Positions 67 through 6,147 of a stretch of DNA of 6,178 nucleotides are shown piece by piece. Positions within the stretch are counted from its first letter, which is position 1; each line of letters opens with the position of its first letter. Under the pieces are notes generated by a model. It was not told where the DNA came from, did no database searches, and was given only the letters and a program-made list of their open reading frames with translations. The position numbers were made by a program, and so were the translations under genes. Where the stretch lies: assembly GCA_946478635.1 (NCBI GenBank), contig CAMLCX010000308.1, forward strand, positions 1 through 6,178. The letters are read 5' to 3'. This DNA is from an uncultured Pseudomonadota bacterium. GTDB lineage: Bacteria > Desulfobacterota_B > Binatia > UBA9968.

Positions 67-1143
67 GTGAGCATCTTCACCGGTGAGCTTGGCCTGCAAT
101 TCGTCACCCATCTGGCGAATCACTACACCGTCCCGGAACTCATTGGACTCGCGCAACTGGGAGCCGATAGCGGGTTCAGCCGGATCTGGTTTAACGACAA
201 CATCCGTTACCGCAGCCAGCTCCTGGTCATGACGGCGGTCGCCGCCCATGTGCCGGTTCCTCTCGGCACGGCGGTTCTCGTGCCCTACTTTCATAACCCT
301 CTCGATCTCGCCGACGCCCTCGGCGCGCTGTCTGAATTGCGCCCCAATCAGGAGATCAGCGTGGGCATCGCCCGCGGCGACCTGGGCCAGGCTCCGCAGC
401 ATATTCAAGCGACGAAACCCATCGCCATGGTCAGCGAGACGGTTCAATTCTTACGCCGTGTGCTCGCCAGCGAAACCGTGCGGTACGATGAATTTCCGTT
501 CCTGTGCGATTACTACCGGCTCAATCCGCGCGGAAAATTCTCCCTGGCCTTTGAACCGCGAGCGAGTTTCAAATTTTACGGCGGCGGCAACGGGCCGCAA
601 TCGCTGCGCATGTGCGGCCGGGTGATGGATGGACTGCTGAGTTCGGGAACGTACATCCCGATGCTCAAAGCGGGCAGGCTGAAAGGCATGCTCGAGACGG
701 CCGAAGCGACGGCACGGGAAACCAATCCCGACAAAAAGCTGCGCAAGGTGTGCGAGCTCAACGTGTCGATTTCGCGCAATCGAGAGAAGGCGCAGGAGTT
801 TCCCAAACGCCAGGTGGCCCACTCGATTCTCCAATGGGAAGCGCTCGGTTTCACGCCGGAGGAGTACGCCAGAATGGGCGTTGACCGCGCCGATGTTTTG
901 AAGCTAAAAGCGGCCTTCGAATCCGGCGCGACGGTCGAACAGGCGGCACTGCTCGTGAACGATCAAATGCTGCGCTGCTACTACGCCGCCGGCACACCGG
1001 AAGAAGTCAGAGATCAGATCATCGAGCTGGTCGGCGCCGCCGAGCAACTCGGCTACGACCACGTCGCCTTCGCCAAGCTCGGGCCCGATTATCACGAAGC
1101 GATCAATCTGCTCGCCGAACAAGTCGTGCCGACGCTGCGCTGA
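67..1143 (+). CDS. Luciferase-like (LLM class) flavin-dependent oxidoreductase
   Basis: This is a 358-residue protein of the bacterial luciferase-like monooxygenase family, which are cytoplasmic TIM-barrel enzymes using reduced FMN or F420. The substrate cannot be read from the sequence. Visible family features are an early barrel strand with a helix (GLAQLGADSGFSRIWFND, about residues 27-44), the LGTAVLVPYFHNP strand (66-78), the SVGIARGD segment (98-105) matching the family's 'GxGRGD' region, a glycine-rich GGGNGPQSL stretch (about 172-180) of the kind that binds cofactor phosphate, and a C-terminal AGTPEEVRDQI helix (from 308). The length fits the family. The GTG at 67 is the only plausible start, because an in-frame TAG lies at 52-54; no strong Shine-Dalgarno is visible. 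The last 50 or so codons recur downstream at 1978-2133. The family call is firm; the reaction is unknown. Confidence 0.9.
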   Translation: MSIFTGELGLQFVTHLANHYTVPELIGLAQLGADSGFSRIWFNDNIRYRSQLLVMTAVAAHVPVPLGTAVLVPYFHNPLDLADALGALSELRPNQEISVGIARGDLGQAPQHIQATKPIAMVSETVQFLRRVLASETVRYDEFPFLCDYYRLNPRGKFSLAFEPRASFKFYGGGNGPQSLRMCGRVMDGLLSSGTYIPMLKAGRLKGMLETAEATARETNPDKKLRKVCELNVSISRNREKAQEFPKRQVAHSILQWEALGFTPEEYARMGVDRADVLKLKAAFESGATVEQAALLVNDQMLRCYYAAGTPEEVRDQIIELVGAAEQLGYDHVAFAKLGPDYHEAINLLAEQVVPTLR

Positions 1144-1204
1144 CCGATGAGAAGGTTTTTCTGCTAGTGACGGCAAACTACGGAATGATCGCGGTTACAT
1201 ATTT

Positions 1205-1232
1205 ATGCTGAAAGCAATATGCTTTCCTGCAT
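1205..1232 (+). promoter_or_regulatory. Imperfect inverted repeat at the start of the vapB-like antitoxin, candidate operator
   Basis: The core is AAAGCA (1211-1216), three central bases, then TGCTTT (1220-1225). Outer ATGC (1205-1208) and GCAT (1229-1232) extend the symmetry with a one-base slip. It covers the two possible antitoxin start codons (1219 and 1231). VapB-type antitoxins usually repress their own operon through such sites, so an operator role is a reasonable inference; nothing else shows it. Confidence 0.4.
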
Positions 1233-1467
1233 GCGAATCACGTTGGAGATTAGTGACGAACTTTTCCGCCTGCTCAAACGCAAAGCCGCGGACGACGGCA
1301 CGGCGTTACGCCAGGTCGTCGAGAGCGCATTGCGAGTCTATTTGGGCAAACAGACCAAGCATAAAGGCTATCAGCTTCGATGGAACACGGAACGAGGCCG
1401 TCTTTTGCCTGGAGTTCGGCTTAACGCCCGCGACGCCCTGTTCGATTTGATGGACGGTCGGCGGTGA
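1231..1467 (+). CDS. vapB: VapB-type antitoxin (type II TA module 1)
   Basis: This is a 78-residue antitoxin. The N-terminus (MRITLEISDELFRLLKRKA) is a beta strand plus helix like the ribbon-helix-helix DNA-binding fold, with a second helix around TALRQVVESALRVYL. The C-terminal tail ending in DALFDLMDGRR is the part expected to wrap the toxin. I chose the ATG at 1231 because family members begin MRITL; an in-frame ATG at 1219 would add four residues (MLSC), and neither start has a clear Shine-Dalgarno. Its TGA overlaps the GTG of the toxin (GTGA), the usual translational coupling in these operons. The partner toxin is destroyed, so this is now an orphan antitoxin that may still bind its operator or neutralise related toxins. 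Confidence 0.82.
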   Translation: MRITLEISDELFRLLKRKAADDGTALRQVVESALRVYLGKQTKHKGYQLRWNTERGRLLPGVRLNARDALFDLMDGRR

Positions 1468-1938
1468 TCGCGCTCGACACCAATTATCTTGGTTCACGCC
1501 AGGCGAGCCGAGACCGTGCAATGAAGAACCCCGCCGCAAGCAGCGGGGTTCGAAAGACCTTTGTGAGAATTTTCCCAACGTTCTCACCCCCGAATGTGTT
1601 TATCGGGGGTCCAGATCCGGATCCGCCTCGATTCCCGCTTAAAGCATGCGGGAATGACGGATTTCGGATGAGCGATTTACTTGACGCAGCAAGTTGCGGG
1701 GAATGAACCCACAGTGATTCAATCGCCGTCCCTAAACCTGCTTAGCGAGGGACCGCGACATGCCATTTTCATGCAGCAGCTACTCCGCGCCGGCCAAGCC
1801 GGCGGCAACCTTGCCCACGACGCGCATATCGCCGCACTGGTACTCGAACACGGTGTCAGAGAACTCTGGACTGCCGACCGAGATTTCGCGCGCTTCCCCG
1901 GACTGCGCCTCCACAATCCCTTCGCGACAGGCGCGTAA
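1464..1938 (+). pseudogene. vapC: Broken VapC-type PIN ribonuclease toxin, interrupted by a hairpin cluster
   Basis: The gene starts GTG at 1464, overlapping the antitoxin stop, and reads VIALDTNYL, the PIN N-terminus with its first catalytic aspartate. After about 1493 the family sequence continues one frame over as LVHARRAETVQ, so there is a one-base frameshift near 1493-1496. From about 1522 homology is lost in a hairpin-rich stretch. It resumes in a third frame near the GTG at 1714 (VIQSPSLNLLSEGPRH) and runs to the normal C-terminus, with HDAHIAALVLEHG and WTADRDFARFPGL holding the later acidic residues. Roughly 50 central residues, including the expected catalytic glutamate, are missing. 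The insert has therefore replaced gene sequence rather than simply interrupting it. The toxin cannot be functional. Confidence 0.82.
1522..1706. repeat. Cluster of palindromic hairpins inside the vapC remnant (REP/MITE-like)
   Basis: Four stems occur in 130 bases: GAACCCCGC 1526-1534 with 1543-1551; GTGAGAA 1563-1569 with TTCTCAC 1581-1587; ACCCCCGA 1586-1593 with TCGGGGGT 1603-1610; ATTCCCGC 1631-1638 with GCGGGAAT 1648-1655. All are perfect, with loops of 8 to 11 bases, and the second and third share two bases. A half-palindrome (GCAGCAAGTTGCGGGG, 1686-1701) ends the stretch. ATTCCCGC/GCGGGAAT hairpins resemble dispersed extragenic palindromes of many bacteria. I see no transposase or target duplication. 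The outer limits are approximate, set by where vapC homology stops and restarts. Confidence 0.65.
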
Positions 1939-1956
1939 AGTTTTTCCCTAGCCAAA

Positions 1957-2133
1957 ATGAAGTGCGCGTGGCACACCGCCGGCACGCCGGAAGAGGTCAG
2001 AGATCAGATCATCGAACTCGTCAGCGCCACTGAGACACTCGGCTACGACCACGTCGCTTTCGCCAAACTCGGGCCGGATTATGACGAGGCGATCAAATTG
2101 CTCGCCGAACAAGTCGTGCCCGCGCTGCGCTAG
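1957..2133 (+). pseudogene. Partial second copy of the 3' end of the luciferase-like oxidoreductase gene
   Basis: From 1978 to the stop at 2131-2133 this matches the end of the upstream oxidoreductase gene (988-1143) without gaps. About 132 of the 150 bases after 1981 are identical, many changes fall in third positions, and the encoded peptide AGTPEEVRDQIIELV...LLAEQVVPALR is nearly the same. The ATG at 1957 opens a 58-codon frame, but the peptide is only the last helices of a TIM-barrel enzyme and cannot work alone. The 88% identity says the copy is either an old duplication or comes from a related paralogue. It lies 18 bases after the vapC remnant, so the first TA module is flanked by direct repeats of this gene end. 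Confidence 0.87.
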
Positions 2134-2246: not shown

Positions 2247-2489
2247 ATGCGGGGATATAGGTTGAATTTTCATTGCCCGATAACGACCGCAAAGCACCCC
2301 CAATTTGCCATCTGCTCTGTCGTCGCGGTCGCGCTCATTATTAGCTGCGTTGCGGCCCAGCCATCGGGCAACTCGACGAGCGTTGTTCACGATCGATTGT
2401 TCACTCCGCACGACGAGTTCTACTCGGTTCATATCAATCCAAGCGGCAGCGGCTGGGTCGGTGGCAACTTCGGTACGAATTGGAACTGA
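2247..2489 (+). pseudogene. Truncated N-terminus of a secreted lipoprotein, possibly YCF48/BNR-repeat type
   Basis: The 80-codon frame has a hydrophobic segment (FAICSVVAVALIIS, residues 20-33) followed by Cys34. The residues IISC fit a lipobox, so the protein would be exported and lipid-anchored. The mature part contains SVHINPSGSGWVGGNFGT (60-77), and GWVGGNFGT looks like the first blade repeat of YCF48/HCF136-like or BNR-repeat proteins, which normally continue for several hundred residues. Here the frame ends right after this motif, where sequence of an unrelated TPR protein begins. The start at 2247 is uncertain, with no clear Shine-Dalgarno. The signal peptide is fairly clear; the family name is inference from one motif. 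Confidence 0.4.
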
Positions 2490-3583
2490 GCTTCGAACTT
2501 GTCTTAGAGGAGGTTCCTTTTCAAACACGAAAGGCTTCGCGGCTATTGAGACCAAAGAGTCGTTCTCAAGGGCACAGGCTCTATGTGCAACCGTTGATGA
2601 AAAAGCTCTAGTTTTCCGGGCTCTGCTCGGACTTTGGTCTTTTCATCTTGTTCATGCAGCTGGGGGAGGAGATGCTGAAATTAGCGCGTCGCACGCGCGA
2701 CTGTGACCGATTTCACGGAACGTACCGACTGTTCGACCGCCCTTTAGATGGTTCCGGGCCTTCGTAAATTTGGCCAAATAAAAGTGGGCAATTCCAGTCG
2801 CCATATGGTCGACGCTGCCCCATTATGATTTTCAGTTTCATCCTATGGTTTCTAGGCTTCCCTGAACGTGCGGAAACAGCGGCGCAGAACGCGATCGCTC
2901 TGGCGAAAAAACTTGCCAGTCCGTTTAATGAAGCTTTATGCGACGCGATTATTGCTACGTACTATTCTTACCGCCGCGATGCCGCTACAACCCTGACGAT
3001 GGCCGAGGCCGCTCTAAAAATATCCGACGAGCGTGGTTTTCTACACTGGATCGCTCTCGGTAGTATCAACAAGGGCTGGGCCCTGTGCAGTTTAGGTAAA
3101 GTGAACGAAGGCCAACCGATTCTCCTTGATGGTCTAAAAATGTGGAAAATCATGGGCGCAGAAATGGCGTTACCAACTTTTCAGGTGCTGCTGGCTGAAG
3201 TTTATCAGGCCGCGGGCGTATTTAAGGAAGCGTCGGCGGCCGTCGAAGACGGGATTGCAATGGCCGTACGCAACAACGACCGCCATTATGACGCCGAACT
3301 CTATCGTGCTAGGGGAGAAGTGCTACTTAAAAATCTAAATAGAAATGCGCGGAACCATTCTGCCGAAGCCGAAACCTGTTTCTTGCGTGCGATTGAAACC
3401 GCTCGCAAGCAAAAGGCTCGCTCGCTGGAACTCAGAGCAGTCATGGCATTCGCTCGCTTATGGCGAAATACTGGAAAGAAACGAGAAGCTCGAATGCTGA
3501 CAAAAATCTACGGCTGGTTTACCGAAGGCTTCGATACGCCGGATTTGAAGGCTGCTAAGGAACTGCTTGATCAACTCGGCTAG
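2477..3583 (+). pseudogene. Degraded C-terminal TPR region of an adenylate/guanylate cyclase- or ATPase-type signalling protein
   Basis: Homology begins near 2477 as ELELSFELVLEE, shifts frame around 2520 to TKGFAAIETKESFSRAQALC and LLGLWSFHLVHA, shifts again with a small deletion near 2657 to GEEMLKLARR, and is lost over about 2700-2820. It then runs uninterrupted from about 2828 to the TAG at 3583. The last part (FILWFLGFPERA, GFLHWIALGSINKGWAL, AELYRARGEVLL, AETCFLRAIETARKQ and the terminal IYGWFTEGFDTPDLKAAKELL) is the characteristic C-terminus of large bacterial proteins built as cyclase or kinase domain, AAA ATPase, then TPR repeats. The catalytic and ATPase domains are absent, so no function is expected. 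A 252-codon frame from ATG 2825 is open, but it begins mid-repeat and is unlikely to be a native gene. Confidence 0.72.
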
Positions 3584-3626
3584 AACAATTTCAAGAGGAC
3601 AAGGCTCGGCGACAGAGGTATCCGGC

Positions 3627-3773
3627 GTTATGTTCGTGGAGCTAAAGAAAGATTACCACAGCAACTATATGCCCCAAACGCGCATCGACGACATAGACTT
3701 CAAAGTGAACGCGGGATTCAAGATCGAAGACTGGCTGACGCCGACGGCGATGCTGAGCCGGGGGAGGCGGTGA
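3627..3773 (+). pseudogene. 3' gene-end remnant, copy A (unidentified family)
   Basis: The frame reads MFVELKKDYHSNYMPQTRI, then IDDIDFKVNAGFKIEDW, then LTPTAMLSRGRR and a TGA at 3771-3773. It has no convincing start or 5' part and looks like the last 45-50 codons of a longer gene. Its reality as former coding DNA is supported by copy B (5263-5402), which preserves DYHSNY-PQ-RID, DW-TPTA-LSRG-R and the stop, and by the shorter copy C (4518-4577). I do not recognise the parent family. It ends 132 bases before the antitoxin of TA module 2. Confidence 0.6.
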
Positions 3774-3813
3774 CCGCACAAGGAATAGTCACGCGCTCTT
3801 GGCGCCCCCGGCT
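3756..3813. repeat. Long GC-rich inverted repeat over the end of copy A
   Basis: AGCCGGGGG (3756-3764) pairs perfectly with CCCCCGGCT (3805-3813). Inside the loop GTGAC (3770-3774) pairs with GTCAC (3788-3792), giving a two-tier hairpin around the stop codon of copy A. No T-run follows, so it is not a standard intrinsic terminator. It may be a structure at the junction between the gene remnant and the TA cassette. Confidence 0.45.
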
Positions 3814-3905
3814 ACCGAAATCCGGTTTGTTGTCCTGCGTTGCAAAGACATCGAGGCTTATGTAGTTTTTTGTGGAAACAATTACATAGTGAATAGGGTA
3901 AACGT

Positions 3906-4169
3906 ATGGCGAAAGGCAAAGTCCACAAGATCATCCAAGTGCCGATGGAAGAGGATTTGCTAAAACGGATCGACGCAACCGCGGGAATTGTGGCGGAGAG
4001 CCGAGCGGCATTCATTCGTGAGGCTTGTCAGCAGCGGCTAAAAAGTTTGCGCGCTAAGGAACTCGATCGGTTATACATCGAAGGTCACCAGAGCCATCCC
4101 GAGAATCTCGACTGGGCTCAAAGTTCCGCTAAATTGCTCTCCGAACGGCTGCCCAAAGAAAAGTGGTAA
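3906..4169 (+). CDS. Ribbon-helix-helix (CopG/MazE-like) antitoxin, TA module 2
   Basis: This is an 87-residue protein with a strand (KVHKIIQVPM) and two helices (EEDLLKRIDATAGI and SRAAFIREACQQRLKSL) in the order of the ribbon-helix-helix DNA-binding fold. A charged C-terminal tail (residues about 50-87, rich in Glu, Ser and Trp) is suited to binding the toxin. The ATG at 3906 has TAGGG (3894-3898) seven bases upstream, an acceptable Shine-Dalgarno. The stop is directly followed by the mazF start (TAAATG), so the two were cotranslated. RHH antitoxins partnered with MazF are common, and autorepression is expected. Because the toxin frame is broken, this is probably an orphan antitoxin. Confidence 0.82.
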   Translation: MAKGKVHKIIQVPMEEDLLKRIDATAGIVAESRAAFIREACQQRLKSLRAKELDRLYIEGHQSHPENLDWAQSSAKLLSERLPKEKW

Positions 4170-4483
4170 ATGAAGCGCGGCGAGGTCTGGTGGGTTGACA
4201 TGCCGCCGCCTGCGGGCCGGCGTCCCGCGCTGCTGCTCAGCCGTGATGCCGCGCACCGAGTCCGCGCGGCGATTATGGTGCGCCGATCACTCGCACGATT
4301 AGAAACATCCCCGTCGAAGTTGTGTTAGATCGCAGCGACGGTATGCCAGCGCGCTGCGTTGTCAATGTTGACGACATCACAACTCTGCCGAAAGTTCTGA
4401 TCAAGCAGCGGATTACCGCTCTCTCCACGGAAAAGATGCAGCAAGTCGATCAGGCGGTCCGATTTGCGTTGGATCTGGACTGA
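4170..4483 (+). pseudogene. mazF: MazF/PemK endoribonuclease toxin with a one-base frameshift
   Basis: The start MKRGEVWWVDMPPPAGRRPALLLSRD is the classic MazF/PemK opening, with the RRP motif at residues 17-19. After residue 37 (IMV) the original frame gives RRSLARLETS and stops at 4328. One base back, from GCG at 4280-4282, the family sequence continues as APITRTIRNIPVEVVLD, DGMPARCVVNVDDITTLPK and ends ALDLD at the TGA 4481-4483. Restoring one base, probably a G in GGTG|CGCC near 4280, would give an intact 104-residue toxin of normal length. The damage is thus a single deletion, recent or a sequencing error. No slippery heptamer is visible, so programmed frameshifting is unlikely. The active toxin would cleave mRNA at specific short sequences. 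Confidence 0.88.
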
Positions 4484-4517
4484 TCAGATTCCTACTGCCC
4501 AAGATTCGCCCGTCCCG

Positions 4518-4577
4518 AAGTTGATCGAGTGCCCATGCGCGACCCCCACGGCCACGCTGAGCCTGGGAAGCGGGTGA
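4518..4577 (+). pseudogene. 3' gene-end remnant, copy C (short, same family as copies A and B)
   Basis: In frame with the TGA at 4575-4577 the peptide is LIECPCATPTATLSLGSG, aligning with KIEDWLTPTAMLSRGRR of copy A after one codon insertion. The last 36 bases differ from copy A at 8 positions and end at the same stop. It lies between the broken mazF and the promoter of TA module 3. Because it is short, its membership is less sure than that of copies A and B. Confidence 0.45.
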
Positions 4578-4588
4578 ATCGCCGTGGG
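4545..4588. repeat. Inverted repeat over the end of copy C
   Basis: CCCACGGC (4545-4552) pairs perfectly with GCCGTGGG (4581-4588), with an inner CGCT/AGCG pairing (4555-4558, 4569-4572). It encloses the stop of copy C as the larger hairpin at 3756-3813 encloses that of copy A. No T-run follows; it could stop transcription coming from module 2 only weakly, if at all. Confidence 0.4.
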
Positions 4589-4594
4589 ACCTGC

Positions 4595-4622
4595 TTGACT
4601 AGCGGACTTACTTAGCTAATAT
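4595..4622 (+). promoter_or_regulatory. Sigma70-type promoter of the Phd-PIN operon
   Basis: TTGACT (4595-4600) is followed after 16 bases by TAATAT (4617-4622), close to the -35 and -10 consensus. Transcription would start near 4629, only about 8 bases before the antitoxin ATG at 4637. This implies a nearly leaderless message, consistent with the lack of a Shine-Dalgarno there. Confidence 0.65.
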
Positions 4623-4628
4623 TAGCTA
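4613..4628 (+). promoter_or_regulatory. Perfect 16-base palindrome, likely operator of the Phd-PIN operon
   Basis: TAGCTAATATTAGCTA is a perfect palindrome that contains the -10 box and ends 8 bases before the antitoxin start. Phd/YefM antitoxins bind palindromes of this kind in their own promoters, and a bound dimer here would directly block RNA polymerase. Confidence 0.7.
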
Positions 4629-4636
4629 GACTTGCA

Positions 4637-4879
4637 ATGAAACAAATAAACATCCATCAAGCAAAAACCGAATTGTCAAAGCTCGTGGAGCGCGCCGAGG
4701 CTGGAGAGGAGATCGTCATCGCCCGCGCCGGCAAGCCCGCGGCCAAACTGGTTCCGTTAACCCGAGCGCGTGGCCGGCGGAGGTTGGGACTGCTTGACGG
4801 TAAGTTCCGGATCCCCGACGACTTCAACAAGGTTCTGCCGGATTCCGTTATTCACGCTTTCGAAGGGCGAAGGCGGTGA
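4637..4879 (+). CDS. Phd/YefM-family antitoxin, TA module 3
   Basis: This is an 80-residue antitoxin with the standard Phd/YefM N-terminal DNA-binding domain: MKQINIHQAKTELSKLVERA, then AGEEIVIARAGKPAAKLVPL (to about residue 41). The basic and hydrophobic C-terminal part (GLLDGKFRIPDDFNKVL) is the toxin-binding tail; 'G--DG-F-IPDDF' tails are typical of Phd proteins paired with PIN toxins. The ATG at 4637 follows the promoter and palindrome closely. Its TGA overlaps the toxin's GTG (GTGA, 4876-4879), implying coupled translation. It should neutralise the toxin by protein contact and repress the operon. The gene is intact. Confidence 0.93.
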   Translation: MKQINIHQAKTELSKLVERAEAGEEIVIARAGKPAAKLVPLTRARGRRRLGLLDGKFRIPDDFNKVLPDSVIHAFEGRRR

Positions 4880-5262
4880 GGCTGCTGCTCGATACGCACC
4901 TGCTCCTCTGGGCCGCGGCGCACAGCGCGCGCCTGCCGCGTGAAGCGCGCGAGCTTTTGGAAGACGACAACAACGACGTTTATTACAGTGCGGCGAGCAT
5001 CTGGGAAATCGCCATCAAGAGCTCGCTTCGGCGTAAAGATTTTCGCGTCGATCTTACCCAGTTAATGCACGTGCTGCCTGAGATGGATTTGCTCGAGCTT
5101 CCCATAACCGCAGCTCACGCGGCTCGTGTCACAGAACTTCCGTTAATCCACCGTGACCCGTTCGACCGGCTTCTGATCGCCCAAAGCATTGCGGAGCCGC
5201 TCACGCTCCTGACCAACGATGCCCTACTCGATCGGTATCGCGTCGGTGCACGTGTCGTATAA
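4876..5262 (+). CDS. vapC: VapC-type PIN-domain ribonuclease toxin, TA module 3
   Basis: This 128-residue PIN protein has the acidic active-site residues in the usual places: Asp6 (LLLDTH), Glu44 (SIWEIAIK), Asp94 and Asp97 (HRDPFDRLLIAQ) and Asp115 (LLTNDALL). The 'LLLDTHLLLWA' and 'RDPFDRLLIAQ' motifs mark the PIN subgroup normally paired with Phd/YefM antitoxins. Such toxins are Mg2+-dependent endoribonucleases, often cutting tRNA or rRNA; the target here is unknown. The GTG start at 4876 overlaps the antitoxin stop and has GAAGGG (4862-4867) eight bases upstream. Length and residues indicate an active toxin. Gene-end remnant B begins directly at its stop codon. Confidence 0.93.
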   Translation: MRLLLDTHLLLWAAAHSARLPREARELLEDDNNDVYYSAASIWEIAIKSSLRRKDFRVDLTQLMHVLPEMDLLELPITAAHAARVTELPLIHRDPFDRLLIAQSIAEPLTLLTNDALLDRYRVGARVV

Positions 5263-5402
5263 AGTTCGCCGACTTGCATCAAGACTATCACAGCAACTAT
5301 GTCCCCCAGCCGCGCATCGACACATCGATCTAAAGTAACTCCAATTTTTGGATCGCAGATTGGACGACGCCGACTGCAAAGTTAAGTCGAGGACAGCGGT
5401 GA
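5263..5402 (+). pseudogene. 3' gene-end remnant, copy B (same family as copy A)
   Basis: It starts right after the toxin stop with KFADLHQDYHSNYVPQPRID, then loses frame through small deletions near 5320-5335, and resumes as FWIADWTTPTAKLSRGQR with a TGA at 5400-5402. Copy A keeps the same residues in one open frame. Net length differs from copy A by three bases. It ends 74 bases before the antitoxin of TA module 4. The parent gene is not recognised. Confidence 0.6.
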
Positions 5403-5440
5403 GTCTACACGATAGGAGAGTGATCCGCACTTGCTTTACG

Positions 5441-5465
5441 CTTTACTTTCTCTTAGAAGGTAAAG
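5441..5465 (+). promoter_or_regulatory. 25-base quasi-palindrome upstream of the AbrB-type antitoxin, candidate operator or hairpin
   Basis: The arms CTTTACTTTCT (5441-5451) and AGAAGGTAAAG (5455-5465) pair at 10 of 11 positions, the remaining one being G-U capable, around a 3-base centre. The right arm ends just before the Shine-Dalgarno AGGAGG (5467-5472), which is four bases from the ATG. It could be the DNA operator for autorepression or an RNA hairpin affecting ribosome access. A possible -35 TTGCTT (5431-5436) precedes it, but the -10 is poor. Confidence 0.5.
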
Positions 5466-5476
5466 TAGGAGGCTGT

Positions 5477-5698
5477 ATGCATGAAGTCAAACTTTCTACC
5501 AAGAACCAAATTGTTATCGGCCGAGAGGTCAGGAATGCCCTGGGCGTTAAGGCCGGCGACCGCCTGCTTGTTGTCCCAAGAGGAGATGCCGTCATCTTGC
5601 TTCGCAAGCCCAGGAAATACTCGAAGGCAATTGCCGGGATGGGCAGAGATATTTATGCATCGCGCTACCTCGACCAGGAGAGAGAAAGCTGGCGCTAG
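5477..5698 (+). CDS. AbrB/SpoVT-type (swapped-hairpin) antitoxin, TA module 4
   Basis: This 73-residue protein opens with the SpoVT-AbrB DNA-binding domain: VKLSTKNQIVIGREVRNALGVKAGDRLLVVPRGDAVILLRKP (residues 4-45). The tail IAGMGRDIYASRYLDQERESW is the usual toxin-binding helix of such antitoxins. The common 'IP-E-R' motif reads IGREVR here, a proline-to-glycine change at the turn. The ATG at 5477 was chosen because a perfect AGGAGG (5467-5472) precedes it and family members start at this point, although the frame is open further upstream. The toxin follows in the same direction, either after 23 bases or overlapping by 10 if the toxin starts at CTG 5689. It is expected to repress its own operon. 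Confidence 0.88.
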   Translation: MHEVKLSTKNQIVIGREVRNALGVKAGDRLLVVPRGDAVILLRKPRKYSKAIAGMGRDIYASRYLDQERESWR

Positions 5699-5721: not shown

Positions 5722-6147
5722 TTGGGCCGACATCGCAAAGTTGGACTGGATACAAGCGTCTTTATTTTTCAGGTCGAGGAAAACAAAAAATATTTTCATC
5801 TCACTGATTCTATTTTTAGTTGGCTTGAAGAGCCAAGAGTGCAAGCGGTGACTTCCACGATCACCTTACTGGAGTTGCTAGTGCAGCCCTACCGGCTAGC
5901 GGACATCGATCGCGTGAATAAATTCTACGCGTTACTCTCCACCTTCCCTCACTTGGAATGGGTCGCTCCGACGCTGGAAATTGCTGATATGGGAGCGCGA
6001 TTGCGAGCCGAGTACAATTTAAGAACCCCGGATGCCCTACAGGCAGCGACCGCCTTGAGCTGCGATGCAACGGGCTTCATATCCAATGATAGCGGATTTC
6101 GAAGAGTGGCTGGACTGGACGTCGTGGTTTTGGATGACCTACTGTAA
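5722..6147 (+). CDS. PIN-domain ribonuclease toxin, TA module 4
   Basis: From TTG 5722 this is a 141-residue PIN protein with intact acidic residues: Asp10 (VGLDTSVFIF), Glu51 (STITLLELLVQPYR), Asp104 (LRTPDALQAAT) and Asp123 (ISNDSGF). The 'GLDTSVFI' and 'TITLLELLVQP' motifs define the PIN group paired with AbrB-type antitoxins. It should be a Mg2+-dependent endoribonuclease of unknown target. TTG 5722 is the only conventional start, but the frame reads LALAAKGLVQFLGRHRKVGLD upstream of it, and AGGAG (5676-5680) sits eight bases before an in-frame CTG at 5689. That CTG would add 11 residues and overlap the antitoxin by 10 bases. The toxin looks active. No terminator is visible in the remaining 31 bases. 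Confidence 0.9.
   Translation: MGRHRKVGLDTSVFIFQVEENKKYFHLTDSIFSWLEEPRVQAVTSTITLLELLVQPYRLADIDRVNKFYALLSTFPHLEWVAPTLEIADMGARLRAEYNLRTPDALQAATALSCDATGFISNDSGFRRVAGLDVVVLDDLL

Follow-up and report, generated by a model that had tools for sequence, protein, structure and literature searches.

Gene-end repeats around toxin-antitoxin modules as candidate entry scars in a Binatia genome and its relatives

How do chromosomal toxin-antitoxin (TA) modules, which are plentiful and patchily distributed and most of which carry, to our knowledge, no mobility gene, enter new loci, and why would copies of one gene end lie beside several unrelated modules? Both questions are raised by a stretch of 6,178 nucleotides from an uncultured Pseudomonadota bacterium (GTDB class Binatia; contig CAMLCX010000308.1 of assembly GCA_946478635.1), the whole of which we call the window. 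A sequence-only reading had noticed three related copies of one 3' coding end, each upstream of a different TA module, and had proposed repeated TA insertion next to this gene end or recombination through it. In the window, ends of two host genes are found on both sides of single TA modules. We consider it rather probable that such gene-end repeats are scars of TA entry, left by incoming units that consist of the end of a host gene X with a TA module behind it.

Gene ends and TA modules in the window

The cleaner of the two cases is a bracket that had been overlooked. A full-length luciferase-like monooxygenase (LLM) gene (67..1143; PF00296, 80.9 bits), on the forward strand like all features of the window described here, is followed by an insert of 829 bp (1144..1972) and then by an orphan copy of its own 3' end (1973..2131; 159 bp, 88% identity, frame open). 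The insert comprises a VapB-like antitoxin (1219-1467), named by its position and without a Pfam match, and a broken PIN toxin (PF01850, 25.8 bits; TIGR00028, 49.6 bits, under the cut-off of 73.6), the C-terminal part of which lies at 1681-1938. The DNA that splits this PIN gene (1464-1938) resembles, by look, a dispersed intergenic repeat. Close LLM genes occur in 25 of the 148 genomes of the relatives, a Candidatus Binatia-like class. Among the 120 proteins listed, the orphan tail fits relatives nearly as closely as the full gene, with best matches of 47/51 and 48/51, respectively. A single event would account for TA entry at this gene.

The copies noticed before are ends of a DUF1329 gene. 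Tail A (3606..3773, frame open) corresponds to the last 55 residues, and its homology begins already at about 3606 instead of 3627 as given earlier. It is followed by a ribbon-helix-helix-type antitoxin (3906..4169) and a MazF/PemK-like toxin (4170..4483). Next come tail C, a short and decayed end (4541..4577), a Phd/YefM antitoxin (4637..4879; PF02604, 45.0 bits) and a PIN toxin (4876..5262; PF01850, 51.4 bits). Tail B, which is frame-broken and starts at the stop of this PIN gene (5259..5402), precedes a MazE/AbrB-type antitoxin (5478..5698; PF04014, 25.7 bits), situated inside the open reading frame (ORF) 5348-5698, and another PIN toxin (5722..6147; PF01850, 51.3 bits). The distances from tail to antitoxin agree with those reported before (132, 59 and 75 bases for A, C and B, respectively). 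The modules themselves are supported by Pfam scores for MazF, Phd, both PIN toxins and MazE/AbrB; the ribbon-helix-helix antitoxin, without a Pfam match, was named by look and position. Since the MazF/PemK matches (PF02452, 24.0 and 28.0 bits) fall in two frames, the MazF frame is broken, and two of the four toxins in the window are broken in total (MazF at 4170-4483 and the first PIN at 1464-1938).

The claimed kinship of the tails is confirmed, with C as a weak third copy. Tails A and B align with a local score of 75, whereas none of 2000 dinucleotide shuffles exceeded 35. For A and C the score is 34 (maximum of 28 in 2000 shuffles), and the alignment covers 37 bp only (4541-4577), not 60 bp. 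The score of 15 for B and C was matched or beaten by 1116 of 2000 shuffles, which is chance level. The search for a parent gene, which had been suggested, was successful: all four proteins found with tail A carry PF07044, are 446 residues long and are 77-85% identical across the tail. Among the relatives, DUF1329 tails were found in three of the 148 genomes, every time within full-length frames, and none of the 148 holds an orphan DUF1329 tail. Contig C343 of one relative, G001, contains four DUF1329 genes in about 21 kb (L023, L024); a further copy of G001 (L001) adjoins what look like hydantoinase genes.

Upstream of tail A lies the 3' half of a large, broken TPR-type gene (2464..3583, 5' part frame-broken), which had not been recognized earlier, and the full DUF1329 gene is therefore out of sight; it was probably lost or lies beyond the window. 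Relatives of the TPR-type remnant are mostly found in open frames of about 1000-1200 residues and match as far as the query end. Judged by look, a secreted YCF48-like gene may have left its 5' part at 2247-2489, which leads into the remnant at about 2464. The DUF1329 array most likely reflects several entries of unrelated TA modules at one gene end.

Brackets around PIN toxins in related genomes

Our list of PIN toxins in the relatives comprised 137 matches in 11 genomes, of which 80 loci with 89 matches were analysed. With a minimum repeat length of 50 bp and a maximum spacing of 2 kb, direct repeats flank 24 of these 89 matches (two of the 24 are fragments of one toxin, L082). Of 3200 anchors placed at random in these loci, 250 were flanked, a figure that is raised by tandem gene arrays (e.g. 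L099, L101, L135). A second set was taken from single-contig genomes and contained 40 PIN loci (20 of the 54 PINs of G007, 16 of 28 of G008 and 4 of 19 of G117). With a slightly looser cut (45 bp, 3 kb) six of the 40 are bracketed. An assembly artefact is unlikely, since brackets are present in single-contig genomes.

A strict test demanded a gene X with an ORF of at least 150 residues, its stop codon at most 25 bp from the end of the repeat, a second copy downstream and no trace of a second gene body ahead of that copy. This yielded 24 structures of the type gene X, insert, X tail in the relatives. The PIN set gave 16 rows, nine of them with a PIN inside (eight loci, L101 twice), and the single-contig set five structures, four with a PIN inside. 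For comparison we took 20 large contigs, ten from G130 and ten from G127, and used the first 40 kb of each (800 kb, 648 ORFs); three strict structures were found at these 648 gene ends. The proportions, 12 of 129 PIN matches (8/89 plus 4/40) versus 3 of 648 gene ends, differ with p = 8e-8, although the units are not the same. Because the comparison set skipped PIN-fetched contigs and holds one listed PIN, the comparison per gene end is the fair one. An upstream-homology filter removed 4 of 28 candidates as paralogue-like; it is imperfect, as L101 and kept rows without a PIN (L090, L135) still resemble tandem arrays. Gene starts gave three mirror (head) structures, compared with the 24 tail structures.

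In a uniform test within 1.5 kb on either side, repeats were found for 23 of 89 PIN matches, 4 of 30 MazF loci (sampled from 50 matches) and 0 of 30 response regulators (sampled from 373 matches). The difference between PIN and the response-regulator control is significant (p=0.0009). One of the MazF cases, L291, is the same locus as L090, and another, L290 (G007), lies at the end of a gene for 246 residues. PIN modules are strongly over-represented among the bracketed cargo.

The host genes encode LLM, ThyX, enoyl-CoA hydratase, AFOR, an FrsA-like esterase, an ABC ATPase, HsdS, PdxJ, a GST-like protein and YchF. Repeats in the strict PIN set are 46-176 bp long, and inserts with a single TA module measure approximately 0.7-1.2 kb. 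The toxin is located on the strand of X in 10 of 12 PIN loci (the exceptions are L079 and L096). In 15 of 18 measured structures the end of the repeat falls within a span from 21 bp ahead of the stop codon of X to 4 bp beyond it; in the remaining ones the repeat extends past the stop by 20 (L200), 32 (L206) and 53 bp (L157). Other cargo includes MazF (L090), a CinA-like gene (L157), an SNF2 helicase (L163) and small membrane proteins (L171, L206). A mechanism specific for TA modules is ruled out by the bracketed CinA-like, SNF2 and small membrane genes.

Several loci show further details. In L171 (17715-19493, G127) ychF, a core gene, is followed by non-TA cargo, a gene for a membrane-type protein of 138 residues, and an orphan ychF end of 109 bp. 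Near a PIN gene in L131 (2557-6448, G125), six short repeats of 30-60 bp follow each other at spacings of 0.3-1.2 kb, perhaps as an array of the integron type. A MazF locus of G130, L276, is bracketed by three repeat pairs that are longer (139-422 bp, 64-86%) and resemble duplicated neighbour genes more than a single gene end. L101 (G130) and L135 (G125) are long tandem arrays of genes of about 1 kb with repeating ends; a PIN match lies within the array or close to it.

TA-free sites with a single copy

Do relatives without the TA module carry one copy of the repeat? At the GST-like gene of G007 (L221), bases 1-912 and 1749-2801 join in TA-free G002 over a single tail of 99 bp. Likewise, bases 1-980 and 1716-2701 of the pdxJ locus of G007 (L214) join in TA-free G004 over a single copy of 69 bp. 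A third case is again the GST-like gene, where the two matches between G006 and G004 overlap by 91 bp in G004. TA-bearing at the pdxJ and GST-like loci are G005, G006 and G007 (wholly or in the part that the match covers).

The insert of another locus, L200 of G008, contains a HigA-like gene (4641-4970; HTH_3 match, named by look), of which 87-92% identical copies are present in the sister genomes G002, G003, G004 and G006 and a partial one in G005. Loci elsewhere that carry DNA homologous to the L200 or L221 insert (L228-L230, L233, L237, L238, L263-L265 and L267) are without a long bracket.

Allele comparison of the two copies

Differences between the two copies were counted by codon position in 18 of the 25 strict structures, the window included (L108, L112, L135, three L090 rows and the second L101 row were left out). 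They are distributed as 42:28:127 over positions 1:2:3, with 133 synonymous and 64 non-synonymous changes. The third-position share of 127/197 exceeds the 44% that we roughly estimated for decay alone (p=2e-8), and plain duplication followed by decay of the orphan does not fit this pattern as a general cause.

At pdxJ, the gene X beside the TA module has a KA- or GA-stop end in G005, G006 and G007, and the same holds for TA-free G008. The orphan of G007, in turn, has a TAP-stop end and is followed by the downstream DNA seen in TA-free G004; pdxJ of G002 and G003 have TAP-stop ends, too. Since TA-free G008 shares the kind of end found in X, the two L214 copies are allele types, and an insert that provided pdxJ with a new end is ruled out. 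The pairing of two allele types shifts the odds from a true duplication to an incoming unit of X end plus TA.

At the GST-like gene, the first 56 bp of the orphans of G006 and G007 are mutually nearest with 8 differences, compared with 10-16 to every X included. Their last 42 bp behave differently. The orphan of G006 has 2 differences from the gene of G004 and 8 from its own X, whereas that of G007 has 1 difference from its own X and 7 from the orphan of G006. The DNA after the orphan is 95.8% identical over 1591 bp with G004 in the case of G006 and 96.1% identical over 1853 bp with G002 in the case of G007. Both genomes switch within the tail to the local allele and its downstream DNA, which indicates that a tail is able to act as a recombination arm. 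Taken together, the allele patterns at pdxJ and at the GST-like gene suggest that X and TA behave as one unit and the orphan as the tail of the recipient.

Proposed mechanism and alternatives

Based on these results we propose the following route for the entry of a TA module. The incoming DNA would contain the 3' end of gene X with a TA module behind it and would recombine by homology with the X of the recipient, which stays whole. The far end of the unit would join inside the recipient's X tail, and this tail would remain behind the TA module as a headless orphan. The first, founding joining is presumably illegitimate; in later transfers the orphan tail may act as the second arm of homology, with a crossover within it. 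Insertions that break X would be lost, and TA modules may be over-represented because they are addictive and hence kept. The earlier proposal of TA insertion or recombination at one gene end finds partial support among the relatives, in bracketed TA modules and in TA-free sites with one copy at the pdxJ and GST-like ends; recombination through the gene end itself is visible at the GST-like locus and not at the DUF1329 array.

A more far-reaching version of this idea, which we regard as doubtful, is docking of cassettes without an integrase: the tail of the bracketing host gene would be a portable attachment arm, and TA modules that share a tail would be exchanged and stacked by homologous recombination. 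Docking through tail homology is possible in the DUF1329 array, and, if true, it would build up arrays in the manner of integrons, for example tail A - TA - C - TA - B - TA.

Several observations weigh against entry by an X end plus TA unit. The model requires a donor with a TA module already behind X. No empty or intermediate site was found in the 148 genomes for the DUF1329 end and none for the LLM end of the window, and the homology of tail C is weak. L200 has no clean one-copy site, as different DNA lies between its flanks in G002 and G003. The strict structure is absent from 117 of 129 PIN matches, MazF alone does not differ significantly from the control (p=0.11), and cargo other than TA modules (CinA-like, SNF2 helicase, small membrane proteins) is bracketed as well. 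Crossovers within the tail were seen at the GST-like locus only, where 8 of 56 bases still differ between the orphans in their 5' parts. Finally, the copies are nearly identical in L200 (61/62) and L214 (67/69), and one L214 variant is shared by both G007 copies and by no other, which is the outcome expected of a true duplication or of conversion at a later time.

True target duplication is the strongest rival, although we hold it to be unlikely. A staggered break at the gene end would capture a TA fragment, fill-in would duplicate the target, and the copies, identical at first, would come to differ as alleles once X or the downstream side had been replaced. Long, variable repeats with a single copy in TA-free relatives agree with it, as do the near-identical copies in L200 and L214 and the description published for restriction-modification genes in the available parts of PMC3874152. 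The third-position bias in the 18 structures speaks against it, and so do the pdxJ copies, which end as two natural allele types.

Less probable still, and by a clear step, is the alternative named in the sequence-only reading, in which gene X was present in tandem and TA modules replaced the bodies of the later copies. The third-position bias would fit functional paralogues equally well, G001 has its four DUF1329 genes in 21 kb, tandem LLM genes exist in relatives (e.g. G110, G116, G117), and the bracketed PIN of L101 sits in a tandem array. However, the hosts include pdxJ, thyX, ychF, AFOR and ABC ATPase genes, and pdxJ, thyX and ychF are usually single-copy genes, which makes a tandem origin unlikely in general. 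Moreover, the one-copy sites hold one gene, not two, and the paralogue filter dropped 4 of 28 candidates, albeit with the array-like L090 and L135 rows retained. A decaying region, in which TA modules and gene fragments accumulate in neutral DNA and alternate by chance, is very improbable and contradicted for the class as a whole: the window does contain other fragments (the TPR-type 3' half, the broken MazF and PIN frames), but a tail-insert-tail order demands the same gene end on both sides, is rarer at random anchors and absent from all 30 response-regulator loci, and is polymorphic between relatives.

Relation to known systems

Insertion of restriction-modification genes with a long target duplication was reportedly described by Nobusato et al. 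in 2000 (Gene 259:99). According to the available parts of PMC3874152, the insertion of restriction-modification systems duplicates a long target of variable length, on the order of 100 bp, and a long duplication is likewise stated in the accessible text of PMC3031569, PMC1643837 and PMC4978471. PMC3031569 adds, in the portion available, that the spread described there "could be true" of TA systems as well; the part of PMC2654758 at hand cites Nobusato only alongside restriction-modification. Titles and abstracts searched contained no report of TA modules with long target duplications, a search whose coverage excluded most subscription papers. As in these accounts, so far as their available text goes, an addictive unit lies between long variable direct repeats of the order of 100 bp and is recognized by comparing related genomes. 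The repeats are 159 bp in the window and 46-176 bp in relatives, and insert-free relatives with one copy exist (G002 for L221, G004 for L214 and G004 for G006), though not for the window. The cargo, on the other hand, is not a restriction-modification system but type II TA and sometimes other genes; the repeats are mostly gene 3' ends whose copies often resemble different alleles, and one gene end in the window was apparently used several times.

For orphan arrays of effector and immunity genes of the type VI secretion system in Vibrio cholerae, homology-facilitated illegitimate recombination was proposed (PMC5361080, available part). There, according to the same portion of text, a homologous anchor on one side is combined with illegitimate joining on the other, and successive events leave arrays of displaced pieces. 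These pieces are immunity genes and the ends of effectors, all from a single type of locus. What the alleles show at pdxJ and at the GST-like gene would be compatible with joining of this type. In our case, however, neither the TA modules nor the host genes whose tails alternate with them are related to each other.

Integron cassette arrays are rich in TA modules, and single TA cassettes separated by a repeat are a shared feature. The repeats here are DUF1329 and LLM coding ends, and the inverted-repeat list of the window has no entry within the tails, unlike the attC-like palindromes of integrons. Neither an integrase nor a transposase was found among 17 window sequences scanned (6 kb of DNA), and the repeats are long, in contrast to the short target duplications of transposons and insertion sequences. 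PADLOC returned no matches for six window proteins. New compared with the known kinds are the TA cargo, the bias towards gene ends and the evidence for two different alleles.

Implications

By the strict test about one PIN module in ten (12/129) keeps a readable entry scar; the looser tests give 24/89 and 6/40. Such scars, together with TA-free comparison sites, make the entry of TA modules into new loci testable and donor alleles traceable. For annotation they are a warning, since a short orphan gene end next to a TA module may be a scar and not a gene. They link TA modules with the kind of mobility known from restriction-modification genes and may help to account for the spread of selfish TA pairs.

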